A stretch of 8,583 nt of DNA, from contig JAJRTK010000097.1 in NCBI GenBank assembly GCA_024278345.1, forward strand, positions 1 through 8,583, given 5' to 3'. The position numbers were made by a program, and so were the translations under genes. Below are positions 1,382-8,137 of the stretch, in pieces (position 1 is the first letter of the stretch; every line of letters begins with the position of its first letter). The DNA comes from a bacterium (GTDB taxonomy: Bacteria; CSSED10-310; JAJRTK01). Below the pieces are notes generated by a model, which did not search any database, was not told the origin of the DNA, and worked only from the letters and a program-made list of their open reading frames with translations.

Positions 1382-3349
1382 GTGACAAAATCGCCTGAAA
1401 TCTCCGTTGAGACGGCAAGGATGGAGCGAGCGGCCGACGCCGGACTCCGACGTTTCGTCTGGCTTCTTTCCATTGGCTGGACGGTTGTCGCCCTGGCCTC
1501 CTCGGGCTGGGGTTGGCGGGATGCCAGGCAAGATGCCGTGAAGATGGGGCTGGTGAGGGCTCACAGCCAGTTCCAGAAGGAGGCCGTGGCCCATTCCTAT
1601 TTGGCGGAACGTCCTCGCGCACCTTCCCTTGGTGGCGTTCGCCAACCGGGTGGCGATCTGGAAGAGGAGGGAAGATCCACGGAAACAATGAGCCAGGGTG
1701 CTAAGGCGTCGCCCAAGGCGGCAAAGCCTCAGATAGCCGCTGCCGCGCCTGCCTATATGGATGATCTTCTGAGGAACTTGCTGGCCGATTCCTATGGGCT
1801 TTCAAGCCATCTGACAAGTCTCAAGCCCCTGGATCTGAGGAACGACCCCGACCCCTGGGACAGAGAGGCCCTGAAGCTTCTGGAAACGGGCCTAGCCGAA
1901 GTCAAGGAGGTGATTCGAATCGATGGAGCCCCCTATTTGAAAGTCATGCGGCCTTTGTATGTCAAGAAGGCATGCCTTACCTGCCACGGTTCCCAAGGCT
2001 ATTCAGTGGGCGATGTTCGTGGCGGGATCGTCGTCACGTTTCCCATGGCCTCTGCCTGGGAGCAAGTCTGGCCGGAGCTCAGGGCGACTCTCATCGGACA
2101 TCTGGTTCTCTGGATCGTGGGGCTTGTGGCCATTGGTTGGGGCGGTCGCCGTTTTGCCCGCGGGGCCCGTGAGTATCGCCGTGCGCAAGAGGAGCTCCAC
2201 CGGAGTGAACATCGGTTCGCCTCTTTGTTCCAGAACATGTTCAACGCCATTGTTTACCAGCGGGTGGTTTACGATGATTCCGGTCGCCCGTGTGACGCGG
2301 TTGTCCTGGCTGTCAACGAGGCTTTCGAGCGGGATACTGGCATCTCTAGATCCGAGATTGTAGGTCGGCCCATCAGCAAGATCATGGAGAAGCTCGTTTT
2401 TCCAGACACCGATTGGCGCCCCGGCTTTCGGCGGTGCGTCGATGGCGGAGAGATCCTTCGTTTCGAGCACTGGATCGAACCCCTTGGCCGGTGTTTTGCC
2501 CTTTCAGTTTTTACTCCGGCAGAGGGCTATCTGGCCGTTCTTGGCGAAGATGTTACGGAGCTTCGGCGGAGCCAAGAAGAACGGCTCCGCCTCCAGGAGC
2601 AGCTCAGAAAATCTCAGAAGCTCGAGGCTCTGGGGAAGCTGGCCGGCGGCATTGCCCACGATTTCAACAACCTCTTGACCGTTCTGTTTGGCATGACCAC
2701 TCTCATCCGGTCCCGGCTAAAAAGACCGGAGATCCCCGTTGCCGATATCGAAGAGAAACTCGACGATATCGAGGAAGCCAGTGCTCACGCAGCCGCCTTG
2801 ACCCGCCAGCTCCTGACTTTCAGCCGCCGTGGCCAAGTGAACCTCGAACTCTTCGAACCCAATCCCATCGTCCGAGGCCTGCGAAAGCTCGTCGCCAGGA
2901 TGGTGGGAGACAAAATCGATCTTGCCATATCTCTGGGCAAGGACGTTGGGAAGATCCGCGCCGATGTGGGGCAGCTCGAGCAAGTTGTGCTGAACCTCGC
3001 CATCAATGCCCGGGACGCCATGCCTGGCGGTGGAAAACTGGAGATTTCCACCGAATCCGTGGCCATTTCCTCTCAGACCGCATTACTTTGGCAGGTGAAG
3101 CCGGGGCGATTCATGCAATTGACCGTGACCGACACGGGAACCGGCATGAGTCCGGAGATTCTGGAACGGATTTACGAGCCCTTCTTCACCACGAAGAAAA
3201 ACGGCCAGGGAACGGGCCTGGGCCTTGCCACTGTATATGGTATCGTTCGGGGCGCTAGCGGCCATATTGAGGTGGAAAGCCAGCCCGGGGTCGGCACAAC
3301 TTTCAGAGTTTGTTTTCCGGAGGTCTCGCCTTCCGCCGACGAGGCCTAG
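1382..3349 (+). CDS. Membrane sensor histidine kinase with c-type heme DUF3365 (Tll0287-like) domain and PAS
   Basis: Counting from GTG 1382 the protein has 655 residues. A first membrane segment spans about 25-43 (FVWLLSIGWTVVALASSGW). It is followed by a periplasmic region ending near 235, then a second membrane segment at about 236-255 (TLIGHLVLWIVGLVAIGWGG). The periplasmic part carries DUF3365/Tll0287 hallmarks: HLTSLKPLDLRNDPDPWDREAL, then YLKVMRPLYVKKACLTCHG with a heme-c attachment motif C198-x-x-C201-H202 (DNA 1973-1987), then GDVRGGIVVTFPM. A PAS domain follows (about 275-394), then HisKA with the phosphoacceptor H426 in GGIAHDFNNLL. The ATPase has an N box (VVLNLAINARDAM, N542), G1 DTGTG (584-588), F box EPFFTTK and G2 GTGLGLA (610-616). 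All catalytic motifs are intact. Domains of this type are thought to sense redox state or small ligands through heme; the ligand here is unknown. The regulator gene starts 65 bases downstream on the same strand, so the two are probably co-transcribed. The stretch at about 75-120 is Ala/Lys/Gly-rich and looks unlike the usual family sequence. Confidence 0.9.
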   Translation: MTKSPEISVETARMERAADAGLRRFVWLLSIGWTVVALASSGWGWRDARQDAVKMGLVRAHSQFQKEAVAHSYLAERPRAPSLGGVRQPGGDLEEEGRSTETMSQGAKASPKAAKPQIAAAAPAYMDDLLRNLLADSYGLSSHLTSLKPLDLRNDPDPWDREALKLLETGLAEVKEVIRIDGAPYLKVMRPLYVKKACLTCHGSQGYSVGDVRGGIVVTFPMASAWEQVWPELRATLIGHLVLWIVGLVAIGWGGRRFARGAREYRRAQEELHRSEHRFASLFQNMFNAIVYQRVVYDDSGRPCDAVVLAVNEAFERDTGISRSEIVGRPISKIMEKLVFPDTDWRPGFRRCVDGGEILRFEHWIEPLGRCFALSVFTPAEGYLAVLGEDVTELRRSQEERLRLQEQLRKSQKLEALGKLAGGIAHDFNNLLTVLFGMTTLIRSRLKRPEIPVADIEEKLDDIEEASAHAAALTRQLLTFSRRGQVNLELFEPNPIVRGLRKLVARMVGDKIDLAISLGKDVGKIRADVGQLEQVVLNLAINARDAMPGGGKLEISTESVAISSQTALLWQVKPGRFMQLTVTDTGTGMSPEILERIYEPFFTTKKNGQGTGLGLATVYGIVRGASGHIEVESQPGVGTTFRVCFPEVSPSADEA

Positions 3350-3365
3350 CTCGAAGAACAGAAAA

Positions 3366-3396
3366 CCGGCCAACAGGCGCTGCCGGCCTCTTTTTT
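3366..3396 (+). terminator. Possible weak terminator or attenuator between kinase and regulator
   Basis: CCGGC (3366-3370) can pair with GCCGG (3382-3386) across an 11-base loop, and the run CCTCTTTTTT (3387-3396) follows. The stem is only 5 bp, so if it acts at all it would reduce read-through into the regulator rather than end transcription. Confidence 0.3.
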
Positions 3397-3414
3397 CCAT
3401 GGAAACCCCTTTTG

Positions 3415-4767
3415 ATGCCGGAAAAGGCCAAAATATTGGTAGCCGTCGAGGAAACTCGGCTGGGTGAGCGGCTCCGCCATCTATTGAATCAGCTCGGCCA
3501 CCGGGTGACGCTCCTTAAAACCAGTGATCTCGCACTCCGCTATCTGGAGCGGGAGCCGTTCGATGCGTTGATCATGAGTCTCTCGCTGCCCCAGCATGGC
3601 GGATTCCGAGTGCTTGAAGTCTGTCGCGAAAGGCACCGGAGGATGGGCGTCATCATAATCGGGCAGCGCGGGGAGGCCGAAAAAACGGTCAGGGCCCTGG
3701 AAGCCGGCGCGTACGACTCTCTTGCCCGTCCATTGAGCCTGGAGCGGATTCGGGTGGTCCTCCAGCGCCTCATGGATCGGCAACGCCTGGAGAGAGAAAA
3801 CCGAGAGCTCCACCGAGAGCTCCACGACCGGTGGGGGATCCACAACCTCATTGGAATCTCGCCGGCCATGAGACGTATTTACGATCAGATCGTGCAGGTG
3901 GCGCCTTCCAAGGCGAGTCTTCTGATTTGTGGGGAGAGCGGCACTGGTAAAGAGCTGGTTGCCCGGGCGGTCCACGACATCTCCAAGCGTTCCGGCGGTC
4001 CCTTCGTTGCGGTGAACTGCGGCGCTTTTTCCGAAAACCTGATTTCGGACGAGCTTTTCGGCCATGTCAGGGGCGCTTTTACCGATGCGGCCAGCGATAA
4101 GCCTGGCGTTTTCGAACAGGCCGATGGCGGGACTCTCTTCCTGGACGAGGTCGCCGAGCTGGCCCTTCCCGTGCAAGCAAGATTGCTCCGCGTTCTTCAG
4201 GATCACAGGGTACAAAAGCTTGGATCAACAAAAACAACCGCCGTCGATCTCCGTGTCATTGCCGCCACTCACCGGGATCTGGAGAAACTCGTGGGCCAGG
4301 GCTCCTTCCGGGAGGACCTCCTCTACCGGCTGAGGGTTGTTCTCGTCACCTTGCCGCCTCTGCGGGAAAGACTGGAGGACATTCCCCTCCTGGTTGACCA
4401 CTTCGTCCGCCGATACGCGGCGGAGAACCAGCGCCCCGTCCGAGGCGTTACACGAAGCCTCATGGATGCGCTTCTTAGCTATTCCTGGCCGGGAAACATT
4501 CGGGAGCTCGAAAATGCCGTCCAGGGGATGGTCGTCCTTTGTACCGGTGATCGCTTAACAGAAGAGGATCTGCCTCGACACATCAAGAGCAGCTTTTCCT
4601 CGCCAAGCCTCGATCTCCACGTGGGGATGACCTTGGCACGGATTGAGCGGGAAGCGATCTTGAAAACCCTGGCTTTCACCGGCGGCCACAAAAGGAAGAC
4701 CGCCAAGATCCTGGGGATCGGTCTCCGAACCCTCTTTCGAAGGCTCAAAGAATATACTGGGGACTAG
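3415..4767 (+). CDS. NtrC-family sigma-54 activator with degenerate receiver domain
   Basis: From ATG 3415 the protein has 450 residues. The frame is open further upstream to 3310, but that would overlap the kinase gene, and the KILV strand typical of a receiver start begins at residue 6. Receiver about 5-118: the acidic pair expected near 11-12 reads V-E, the phosphoacceptor aspartate is Ser55 (DALIMSLSLP), the conserved Thr/Ser is Gly83 (VIIIGQRG), and the conserved Lys is Arg105 (AYDSLARPL). A helical linker follows (119-140). The AAA+ domain (about 143-375) is intact: Walker A GESGTGKE (173-180), GAFTDA loop (220-225, usually GAFTGA), Walker B GGTLFLDEV (238-246), sensor I ATHRDL, arginine-finger region FREDLLYRL and sensor II SWPGNIRELENAV. 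The Fis-type helix-turn-helix is at the end (AILKTLAFTGGHKRKTAKILGIGLRTLFRRLKEY). It should bind upstream DNA and use ATP to open sigma-54 promoters. Classical phosphorylation by the neighbouring kinase looks impossible. The ribosome binding site is weak (GGAAA at 3401-3405). The TAG stop overlaps the edge of an R1 repeat. Confidence 0.92.
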   Translation: MPEKAKILVAVEETRLGERLRHLLNQLGHRVTLLKTSDLALRYLEREPFDALIMSLSLPQHGGFRVLEVCRERHRRMGVIIIGQRGEAEKTVRALEAGAYDSLARPLSLERIRVVLQRLMDRQRLERENRELHRELHDRWGIHNLIGISPAMRRIYDQIVQVAPSKASLLICGESGTGKELVARAVHDISKRSGGPFVAVNCGAFSENLISDELFGHVRGAFTDAASDKPGVFEQADGGTLFLDEVAELALPVQARLLRVLQDHRVQKLGSTKTTAVDLRVIAATHRDLEKLVGQGSFREDLLYRLRVVLVTLPPLRERLEDIPLLVDHFVRRYAAENQRPVRGVTRSLMDALLSYSWPGNIRELENAVQGMVVLCTGDRLTEEDLPRHIKSSFSSPSLDLHVGMTLARIEREAILKTLAFTGGHKRKTAKILGIGLRTLFRRLKEYTGD

Positions 4768-4908
4768 GAGCCTGTTGCGGATAGGCTCCCGGAGACGAAA
4801 ATCAGCGTTTTTTGCCAGCGCATGACTCTGCACAGGGTGCTACGGATTGCGCCCACAGTCGATGTGGGCCTCGCCTTCCGGGAAGTGAGCAATGTGGAAC
4901 AGGCTCCT
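4766..4908 (-). repeat. R1 repeat, short complete copy
   Basis: A 143-bp unit with ends AGGAGCCTGTTGC (4766-4778) and GGAACAGGCTCCT (4896-4908), complementary at 12 of 13 bases. Read on the minus strand it matches the two ends of the R1 copy at 269-616, including GGCCCACATC, CGCAATCCGTAGCACCCTG, TGCAGAGTCATGC and GGGAGCCTATCCGCAACAGG. Its first two bases are the last two of the regulator's TAG stop. GGAGCCT (4767-4773) can also pair with AGGCTCC (4783-4789) as a 7-bp hairpin directly after the gene, so the element may act as the 3' end structure of the operon. No protein is encoded. The R1-related sequence continues beyond it: 4917-4986 resembles the interior of the other copy (GATGCTTCGG, GGCGGACGGATTGCCG). 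Confidence 0.75.
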
Positions 4909-4924
4909 GGGCACGAATGATGCT
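4909..4924 (+). promoter_or_regulatory. Candidate sigma-54 (-24/-12) promoter for the hydrolase gene
   Basis: GGGCACGAATGATGCT matches the consensus TGGCACG-N4-TTGCW at 10 of 12 defined positions, with the invariant GG (4910-4911) and GC (4922-4923) correctly spaced. Transcription would start near 4935, leaving a leader of about 170 bases before ATG 5104. It lies between a sigma-54 activator gene and the hydrolase, which fits, but one such match in 8.6 kb can arise by chance, and the -12 half is shared with repeat-related sequence. Confidence 0.35.
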
Positions 4925-5103
4925 TCGGGCCTCATGGAAAGGCGAGTGGCGGCGGACGGATTGCCGTCGCCGCGAGCGGACTCAACCCCCATCGTTGCCA
5001 TCGGTCGTGAGAGTTTCGGGTTGTAGCCGGGTGGTTTTCACGGTAAGCTCCCCTGGCGTTCGCGGGAAGTTGCCATGGACAAAAATGGAATGGATGGAAC
5101 GAC

Positions 5104-5853
5104 ATGACCGGGCTGCTCGTGGTGCCACTGGGGGTTGGAGATGCCTTTTCGGCGTTTCGTTATTCGTCTTGCTTGGCCCTGGAGTCGGCGGGGAAATGGT
5201 TACTGATCGACTGTCCGCACCCCATCCGGAAAGTCTTGTGGGAAGCCTCCCAGACAGCAAACATCGAGCTTGACATCGACTCGTTTCAGGCCGTGGTTTT
5301 GACGCACCTCCATGCCGACCACTGTTCAGGGCTGGAGGGGTTTGCCTATTTCTGCAAGTTTGCGCTGGGACGGAGAGCCCGGTTGCTTCTGCACCCTGCC
5401 GTAAAAGAGCGTCTCTGGGAAGGCTGCCTCGCGGCTGGGATGGAGCGTCTCCTGGTGGCCGATGGAACAGGCTCGGAACCCAAAGGGTTGGACGATTACT
5501 TTGAGATCGACTCCCTGTCGGAGAAGCTCGCGGCAAAGGTCGGTCCCTTCACCATTGAATGCCAGAGGACGATCCACCACGTTCCTACGACGGCGCTCAA
5601 GATCCATGCGGGTGGTCGTTGCCTTGGCTACAGCTCCGACACATCTTTCGACCCTTCGCTCTTGGAATGGCTCGCCGGCGCCGATTTCATCATCCATGAA
5701 ACGAACTACGGGGTCCACACGCCCTACGAGAAGCTCGCCCAGCTTCCCCAAGAGTTGCGCCAGAAAATGCGCCTCATTCACTATCCCGATGATTTCGATC
5801 TCGATGCCAGTATCATCGAGCCTCTGCGGGAAGGTTGTTGTTACGAGGTATAA
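5104..5853 (+). CDS. Metallo-beta-lactamase-fold hydrolase
   Basis: The protein has 249 residues and no signal peptide, so it is probably cytoplasmic. It carries a full set of metal ligands of the metallo-beta-lactamase fold: T67-H-L-H-A-D-H73 (HxHxDH, which normally binds two zinc ions), a histidine at 158/159 (TIHHVPTTALKI), D179 (LGYSSDT), H198 (IIHETN) and H226 (RLIHYPDD). The spacing and the YSSDT and HETN motifs recall the RNase Z/PhnP-like branch (phosphodiesterases) more than true beta-lactamases, but the flexible-arm sequence of RNase Z is not visible, so the substrate is unknown. The ATG has only a weak GGA five bases upstream, and no in-frame start lies close above it. About 195 bases separate it from the R1 repeat, and a candidate sigma-54 promoter lies at 4909-4924. 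Its last 41 bases overlap the convergent DUF1330-like gene. Confidence 0.88.
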   Translation: MTGLLVVPLGVGDAFSAFRYSSCLALESAGKWLLIDCPHPIRKVLWEASQTANIELDIDSFQAVVLTHLHADHCSGLEGFAYFCKFALGRRARLLLHPAVKERLWEGCLAAGMERLLVADGTGSEPKGLDDYFEIDSLSEKLAAKVGPFTIECQRTIHHVPTTALKIHAGGRCLGYSSDTSFDPSLLEWLAGADFIIHETNYGVHTPYEKLAQLPQELRQKMRLIHYPDDFDLDASIIEPLREGCCYEV

Positions 5854-6418: not shown

Positions 6419-6429
6419 GCCATCCCGCT

Positions 6430-6465
6430 AAAAAAACAATCCCGCGGCTTTTTCCACGCCCACGG
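6430..6465 (-). terminator. Possible terminator downstream of the Rpn-type pseudogene
   Basis: Read on the minus strand, CCGTGG and CCGCGG form a 6-bp stem (one G-T pair) with a 12-base loop. A run of seven T (plus-strand A run at 6430-6436) follows five bases later. It is well placed to end a minus-strand transcript from the nuclease gene, but the gap before the T run weakens it. Confidence 0.4.
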
Positions 6466-6567
6466 CAGCGCGTGCGGGCCGGGAGACCCGCCCGCCACGG
6501 TCCCTCTCCCCAATCTTCTTCACGCCCCAAGCAGCGCGTGCGGGCCGGGAGACCCGCCCGACACGGT
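6454..6567. repeat. Two direct copies of a 66-bp-spaced GC-rich unit
   Basis: A 30-base stretch starting GCAGCGCGTGCGGGCC and ending GACCCGCCCG is identical at 6465-6494 and 6531-6560. Both are preceded by CACGCCC-like sequence and followed by CACGGT-type ends (6501, 6567). The inner GCGGGCC-GGGAGACCC part is related to the GCATGCGGGCC hairpins nearby. The region does not look coding on either strand. Confidence 0.75.
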
Positions 6568-6605
6568 ATTTTTCCGCCCTCCCCCTCCCGCCCGCGCCGC
6601 GCCGG

Positions 6606-7716
6606 TCAAGAGTCCAGAATACGCCTGGAGACTTCCTCCATGGAGCCGGCTTCCAGGACGATGTCCAGCGCACGTTCCAGCTTGTCGAGTTCCTGTCTTT
6701 CCGCCCAGCTTTCCAAGGTGATGGAGGGCTCGCCGAAGCGCCGCCGGATGGCCCGAAGCAACAGCCGCCGCGCCTCCGTGGCGAGCCCCTCCTCGCGCCC
6801 CTTTTCCAGCCCTTCCTCGCGTCCTTTCTCGATGCCACGTTCCAGGAGCATCTGCCCCAAAGGCGTGTCTTCCATCTTCTTGCCTCCCAGCAAATGTTCC
6901 ATTGGGTCACGGCGGGCAGCCGGTGGCTGATGAATGCCCCCAAAAGCCCCGCCAGGTTCTCCCGGAGGTTGGTTGCCAAGCCGGCCGCCGAAAGCGCTCC
7001 CGCCCAGTTGGAAGCTTCCTGGAGGATCCTGGAAGCCGGGACTCCCGTCAGCGGTAAGAGGGGGGTCGCGGCGGGTCCCCCCAGTTCCAGGAGTTCTTCC
7101 GGCGAAAGGGAGTCCAGGACCACGGCCTCGGGCCGGAAGTAGAGCCCCCGGTCTTCGGCCCAGCGGAGGTCCAGTTCTTCCTCCACGCGGTTCCCGGCGG
7201 TGACGTACACGACGAGAACGCGGACGGACCTCTCCCAGTTCTCCTGGGACAGGTAGGTGGAGATGGCCTGAAGCCAGCGAAGGAGGAAGTTCCGATCCGG
7301 ATAACCCTCATGGAGCCCAATCGAACCACCCCGGAAGTATGAAAGAAACGACGCGGCGCGTCGTACATAAACGTGGGTCCAGGGAGCAATCGCTCCCTGG
7401 TGGGTGCAGGGCAAAGCCCTGCCAGGGGACCGGGGACGGAGTCCCCGGACGACCGCTGAGCGGAGCGATGCGTGCCCCGTAATCTAAGAAGACAATGAGC
7501 CGCCTGGCGTGTACTTTCATGGTAACCCTGGAACTCTGCAAAGAGGAGAGGAAGCTCGTCGGTGTGGGGGACCAGGACGCCGTCGAAGCGCCGCTCCAGC
7601 TCCTTGACAACCGGGCTGGTCCAGCGGTAGGCCCCCGGCGCCTCGATTCCCGCCAGCCGCACGATGAGATCCGGGACCAGCCGCCCAAGCTCGTAAAATG
7701 CCTTGTCGGTTGCCAT
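6606..7716 (-). pseudogene. Rpn/DUF2887-type PD-(D/E)XK nuclease gene, interrupted and frameshifted
   Basis: Starting at ATG 7716 (minus), MATDKAFYELGRLVPDLIVR and RRFDGVLVPHTDELPLLFAEFQGY give the N-terminal nuclease core of the Rpn (recombination-promoting nuclease, putative transposase) family, with the expected catalytic-type D45 and E61-x-Q63. After Y65 a 221-bp hairpin element breaks the frame. The continuation is in another frame from 7300 down: PDRNFLLRWLQAISTYLSQE, VRVLVVYVTAGNR, then LLGAFISHRLPAVTQ. A second shift of one base at about 6900-6906 leads into MEHLLGGKKMEDTPLGQMLL and a charged repeat GREEGLEKGREEG, ending SRRILDS at TCA 6606-6608. Put back together the product would have about 297 residues, normal for the group. 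As it stands no full product can be made; short pieces, such as one from ATG 6902, could be. Such genes are typical of accessory, mobile-element-rich regions. Confidence 0.8.
7302..7529 (+). mobile_element. H-family copy B: 221-bp insertion with 7-bp target duplication
   Basis: TAACCCT occurs at 7302-7308 and again at 7523-7529. Removing one copy and the 214 bases between restores the nuclease reading frame exactly (FAEFQGY joined to PDRNFLL), which is direct evidence of insertion. The element codes for nothing. It is a string of perfect stems: CGACGC/GCGTCG (7349-7363), CCAGGGAGC/GCTCCCTGG (7379-7400), GCAGGGC/GCCCTGC (7406-7422), CCGGGGAC/GTCCCCGG (7430-7448) and CCGCT/AGCGG (7453-7463). 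The ends are CATGGAGCCC and, inverted, CCATGAAAGTACACG, so terminal inverted repeats are weak at best. It must have been moved by an enzyme encoded elsewhere. Related copies lie at 945-1350 and 8480-8583. Confidence 0.85.
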
Positions 7717-8137
7717 ACTATGAGCGTCCCGGATTGGAGTGAAAAAGTCAAGATAGAGCGGGCGTCGGGCCTCGGTAGCCGACTCTGGCGACCAGCGATC
7801 ACCAGTGTCGATGGAATGCGTGTCGAGCGCTGGAGGCGCGGGTCGGTGCCGACAGGTGCGGTCGGCAACGATATGGCATCGCTCCGTCCCGCGGTGGCGC
7901 CTGTCCCAATCCATTTCCGTTGGCCATGCAAGTGAGTTCCACCGAAGTTTCGCGCCCGCGGCCTACCGCCATGGAACCTTCCCGCCTCGGGGCGGAAACT
8001 GATTCTCTACCGATGCAGCAACACCAAGCTAGATGGCTACCACCCAATTGGCTTCTGTTTGGGACCTATCAGATCGGGTTTACAACTTCACGTTTGGGCG
8101 GGCCTCCTCTCTGATTTTGCGAAGCCCGGCAGGCGCT

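Follow-up and report, generated by a model that had tools for sequence, protein, structure and literature searches.

A sigma-54 activator with a pseudo-receiver domain encoded beside a heme-Cache sensor kinase

The kinase and activator locus

The window, meaning the whole stretch of DNA that was analysed, is a complete contig of 8583 bp from a draft genome of 6.06 Mb (87.9% complete). Two adjacent genes on its forward strand encode a sensor kinase and an NtrC-family sigma-54 activator, and their features are given below with the evidence used to assign them. The contig is short, and distant partners of either protein would lie outside its view.

1421-3349, forward: sensor kinase with c-heme Cache (Tll0287/DUF3365), PAS-like, HisKA and HATPase domains (open reading frame, Pfam, motifs)
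1973-1987, forward: CLTCH covalent heme motif (sequence motif)
2651-2671, forward: IAHDFNN phosphoacceptor histidine box, hybrid-kinase class (motif)
3350-3414, forward: 65-bp gap between kinase and activator (sequence)
3415-4767, forward: NtrC-family sigma-54 activator with pseudo-receiver, AAA+ and Fis-type helix-turn-helix, 450 amino acids plus stop (open reading frame, Pfam)
3415-3768, forward: pseudo-receiver domain, with V11, E12, S55, G83, S102 and R105 at the DD/D/T/Y/K positions (alignments, model)
3739-3849, forward: predicted linker helix, an extension of helix 5, residues 109-145 (model)
3847-4344, forward: AAA+ sigma-54 interaction domain, full motif set (Pfam, motifs)
4072-4089, forward: GAFTDA, a variant of the sigma-54-contacting GAFTGA loop (alignment, motifs)
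4630-4755, forward: Fis-type helix-turn-helix (HTH_8), 45 bits (Pfam)

The activator frame opens with ATG at 3415 and runs uninterrupted for 450 amino acids to a stop codon ending at 4767. The kinase lies within a 696-amino-acid frame opening at 1259, in which M55 (position 1421) is the probable start. A forward terminator-like site was looked for in the 65-bp gap and none was found, so that co-transcription of the two genes is plausible. A scan of the window for sigma-54 promoters gave four matches against 3.7 expected, which is no enrichment. Inverted copies of an intergenic repeat flank the gene pair (269-624 and 4758-4980); the genome contains some 40 matches to this family, at 79-99% identity and with a core of about 150 bp, and an Rfam search that included these repeats returned zero matches. 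Also in the window are the C-terminal end of a second histidine kinase, truncated by the contig edge (1-249, forward), a metallo-beta-lactamase-fold protein matching the Anti-Pycsar Apyc1 family with 67 bits against a cut-off of 50 (5104-5850, forward), and a DUF2887-type gene that is split across two frames and probably broken (6428-7914, reverse).

The original prediction, made from the sequence, described AAA+ and DNA-binding domains that were complete beside an altered receiver, and the corresponding motifs and Pfam matches were all present. Besides HTH_8, the activator matched Sigma54_activat (224 bits) and AAA_lid_14, and the Walker A, Walker B, arginine-finger and sensor motifs of a bEBP were found (GESGTGK at residue 173, GAFTDA at 220, TLFLDE at 240, AATH at 283, FREDLLYRL at 298 and WPGNIRE at 358). 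The host genome encodes rpoN. The exact loop sequence GAFTDA occurred in one of 93 aligned sequences, and GSFTDA in two more (L013 and L094), both with intact receivers. NorR with the same Gly-to-Asp change, G266D, carries an identical residue in this loop and is fully constitutive, its need for a signal having been removed; G266D is a laboratory variant, and NorR differs in sensing nitric oxide through a GAF domain in the same protein (PMC2941729). As a sign of signal-independent activity, GAFTDA is suggestive only, since the related GSFTDA is found in two activators whose receivers are intact.

The receiver domain of the activator

The N-terminal domain of the activator matched Response_reg with 53 bits (cut-off 30.2) and aligned end to end with NtrC-type receivers. 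In an alignment with 76 receivers from the same genome and with Escherichia coli CheY, the CheY columns D12, D13, D57, T87, Y106 and K109 held V, E, S, G, S and R, respectively. Other sigma-54 activators served for a second alignment, which placed the active-site columns at residues 11, 12, 55, 83, 102 and 105, in agreement with the positions originally read (V11-E12, Ser55, Gly83 and Arg105); S102 occupies the Tyr/Phe switch position. In the acidic pocket V11 is a drastic replacement and E12 a conservative one that leaves a single acidic residue. The DD, D, T and K of a phosphorylatable response regulator are here V, E, S, G and R, and the domain is a recognised receiver of the PF00072 type that lacks the key catalytic residues, as in a pseudo-receiver. 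Sixteen other sigma-54 activators with a receiver were found in the genome, and all of them have an intact active site; a few further degenerate receivers are encoded there, none of them in a sigma-54 activator of this kind.

Alignment with NtrC-type and activator receivers, proposed at the outset as a check, placed no aspartate at the end of strand 3: in the segment DALIMSLSLP none was in register by either alignment or in a structural model, and a shifted alignment restoring the phosphosite aspartate was ruled out for this reason. The model, built on a 14-sequence alignment, has five strands and five helices (pLDDT 87.7, pTM 0.81), with strand 51-55 ending at S55. The fold-shaping proline at D+4 (P59) and glycine at D+8 (G63) are kept, and the closest solved folds are the receivers of NtrC1 and NtrX. 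The prediction that the receiver retains its fold pattern was thus borne out by a model with a normal receiver fold followed by a long linker helix (residues 109-145), which is probably a dimer coiled coil. As every required position is changed, no alternative aspartate is in register and the predicted fold is kept, the alignments and model support the conclusion that this receiver cannot act as an aspartate-phosphorylated switch.

Continued phosphorylation by the adjacent kinase, whether at S55 or through some weak residual chemistry, appears extremely improbable. Ser/Thr phosphorylation is known for the pseudo-receiver regulator GlnR (PMC12632262), but histidine kinases transfer to aspartate, and V11 in the metal site together with the T-to-G and K-to-R changes would abolish the catalytic pocket. 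The K+2 position is Leu, as it is in 12 of 82 intact activators, a residue of the class listed as biasing CheY toward active states (PMC12632262).

Mean identity of the receiver to the 82 intact activators was 26.6%, about 11 points under the value predicted from the AAA+ domain, which places the divergence mainly in the receiver; in the same test the lowest intact protein fell at -6.4 (sd 1.9). The earlier suggestion that the changes reflect long-term relaxation or repurposing and not a single mutation fits this large, receiver-specific divergence, which may stem from either relaxation or selection. A pseudogene was ruled out, as no stop or frameshift was present and the receiver has a coding-type composition (GC of 70/41/71 by codon position). 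These same features count against decay of the receiver, in which loss of the cognate input would have been followed by neutral drift, with the activator constitutive or being lost. The divergence, far beyond that of intact proteins, and searches of about 840 genomes in which orthologues showing conservation were not found are consistent with such decay, but rapid decay would be expected to reach the fold, and the landmarks Pro59 and Gly63 are kept in a confident model. We consider this explanation unlikely.

The sensor kinase and the control of the activator

The kinase matched Tll0287-like, HisKA and HATPase_c in Pfam, with a PAS match under its cut-off. Its sensor domain has a PF11845 match of 59 bits, with the CxxCH motif of a c-heme Cache domain between two membrane helices that were read by eye; a sequence check of this domain found no cysteine besides those of CLTCH. 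The kinase had been described as having every catalytic motif, and the set was indeed complete (CLTCH at residue 239, IAHDFNN at 465, NLAINARDAM at 579, DTGTGM at 625, EPFFTTK at 640 and GTGLGLA at 651). It is the sole PF11845 protein found in the host genome. According to a 2026 preprint, the PF11845/DUF3365 family consists of Cache domains that carry heme covalently, members fused to signalling modules have nitric-oxide sensor properties, and the signalling type has no axial cysteine (PMC12889525), like the sensor in the window. By analogy, the kinase is probably a nitric-oxide or redox sensor.

The kinase core is closest to those of hybrid kinases, of the HDFNN class. The closest homologues examined within the phylum, 11 in number (L070-L080), all have a receiver directly after the HATPase domain in the same protein, and 10 of them have an AHD(F/Y)NN box. 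The window kinase terminates after HATPase, with no C-terminal receiver. This missing receiver, overlooked in the first reading, is in our judgement the most informative new fact about the locus: with the kinase's own receiver absent and that of its neighbour non-working, both possible receivers are missing, and on the sequence evidence the two proteins together have no usable phosphoacceptor. Wherever the pattern matched, kinases adjoining intact activators, in the host genome and at L238-L240, L245 and L257, have HE(I/V/L)xNPL boxes. The present genes do not form a classical NtrB/NtrC pair, having an HDFNN and not an HExxNPL kinase beside a dead receiver, and a hybrid-class core without its own receiver speaks against the kinase ever having been an NtrB-type partner for the activator. 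The possibility that the activator's receiver is the one lost from the kinase was ruled out, its median score being 43 bits against activator receivers and 10 bits against hybrid receivers.

On the most likely reading, the activator does not need phosphorylation, and the kinase has its effect elsewhere or through contact. We estimate a probability of roughly one half for the specific reading of a phosphorylation-independent activator with a kinase that acts on another receiver. The activator would assemble and act unphosphorylated, with the pseudo-receiver retained for dimerisation or contact; its output would depend on how much of it is synthesised or on a partner that binds it. The neighbouring heme-Cache kinase would not be its phosphodonor; being of hybrid-class origin with its own receiver lost, it would most likely phosphorylate a receiver encoded elsewhere. 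Pointing to this reading are the wholly changed active site in a predicted intact fold, the AAA+ motifs and rpoN, the HDFNN core without a receiver, and the HE(I/V/L)xNPL boxes beside intact activators. The equivalence of GAFTDA to NorR G266D, the K+2 Leu and the nitric-oxide sensor properties of heme Cache domains fused to signalling modules (PMC12889525) may add to it by analogy. Two observations count against it: the activator follows the kinase in tandem on the same strand after 65 bp, which suggests a functional link, and a loop of the GAFTDA type (GSFTDA) occurs in the intact-receiver activators L013 and L094. The original proposal, that control has moved from phosphorylation to another input or that the kinase serves a different regulator, is supported, and its second half is strengthened by the HDFNN class and the absent C-terminal receiver.

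Control of the activator by contact with the kinase is a more tentative possibility. The pseudo-receiver would dock on the HisKA helices without phosphoryl transfer, and heme occupancy or kinase conformation would free or hold it. The genes are adjacent, the receiver retains its predicted fold and surface, in ShkA and CikA the pseudo-receiver binds the HisKA domain of the same protein (PMC12632262), and unphosphorylated DctD is reported to be activatable by a bound protein (PMC11077940). Against this, the receiver is of the NtrC type, unlike those of the kinase's hybrid relatives, and is not the kinase's former receiver. It is quite unlikely that the locus is a two-gene system in which a receiverless heme kinase of hybrid ancestry controls the activator via a dead receiver by protein contact only, with no phosphoryl transfer.

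Relatives and known systems

Genome searches spanned about 840 genomes, and relatives were sampled by similarity and do not give a frequency estimate; the host phylum is sampled by eight genomes, with none besides the host from its family. No orthologue of the activator was found, the phylum, relatives and two other phyla giving nothing above about 44%; a plasmid search found no closer relative, and a contig search with receiver patterns, which detect close relatives only, returned ordinary receivers only. As orthologues were not found, the substitutions cannot be called conserved. The best full-length matches (42-44%) were L002, L172 and L173 (genomes G031, G178 and G316), from three genera of one family in another phylum. 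Their receivers are degenerate, with DSE or DAE at DD/D and with Thr and Lys kept. Together with L205 (genome G283; DQE), they resemble the window receiver in the loss of a pocket aspartate and of the phosphosite aspartate, which is a Glu in these four; they differ in keeping Thr and Lys, in the phosphomimetic-like character of that Glu and in having no adjacent kinase. Further activators with degenerate receivers are L208/L209 (DSA) and L218 (EPA). No kinase gene was found beside any degenerate-receiver activator where the context was readable, and pseudo-receiver activators, as assigned from these sequences, are present in several phyla as orphans. A first tree joined the window protein to the pseudo-receiver group of other phyla (86 SH-aLRT), but two denser trees did not place it firmly, on a long branch, and descent from that group is not claimed.

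Pairs of a DUF3365 kinase and a sigma-54 activator were found in other phyla (L240, L245, L246 and L257). As in the window, a heme-Cache kinase is followed directly by an NtrC-type activator, but the receivers are intact, the kinases have HE(I/L)xNPL boxes, and the activators' AAA+ domains are 40-46% identical to that of the window, the pairs not being orthologous. The heme-Cache kinase/activator pairing is thus known already, and the dead receiver predicted inside it is new.

The closest solved sequence is NtrC1 of Aquifex aeolicus (4l4u, 1zy2, 1ny5), which has the same domain order and the closest receiver fold (TM 0.80, 1.5 A) but a phosphorylatable receiver of its own. The window protein is a pseudo-receiver activator, a kind already known from FleQ of Pseudomonas aeruginosa, which shares the NtrC-type architecture, AAA+ sequence similarity (PDB 8pb9, 8p53) and an atypical receiver with no phospho-switch use (PMC12632262). 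FleQ is an orphan whose AAA+ ring is the site of regulation by c-di-GMP and FleN, whereas the present activator has a kinase neighbour, and it is this adjoining kinase that is unusual. CmrRST of Clostridioides difficile likewise has an atypical regulator and a kinase in one operon (PMC12632262), but an intact regulator, CmrR, is also encoded there. Pseudo-receivers make up about 6% of bacterial receivers, their switching was called a mystery in a 2025 review, and among 20 atypical regulators that have been characterised, CmrT and FrzS alone are non-orphans (PMC12632262). Nearly all pseudo-receivers studied so far are orphans. With a pseudo-receiver activator beside a complete heme-sensor kinase, both input and output are defined, so that contact, expression level and true uncoupling would be directly distinguishable; if the contact model were true, a kinase would govern transcription without passing phosphate to its regulator.

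Two of the activators had further peculiarities. In L215, which has Glu at the phosphosite, the GAFTGA loop reads GELAGS and the N-terminal frame is apparently disturbed in the translated sequence. The pseudo-receiver activator L218 (EPATFK) has no kinase beside it but adjoins a protein that contains an MCP signalling domain (L234, 6594-8147 and 8110-9366, reverse strand), and this neighbour is possibly a different input.
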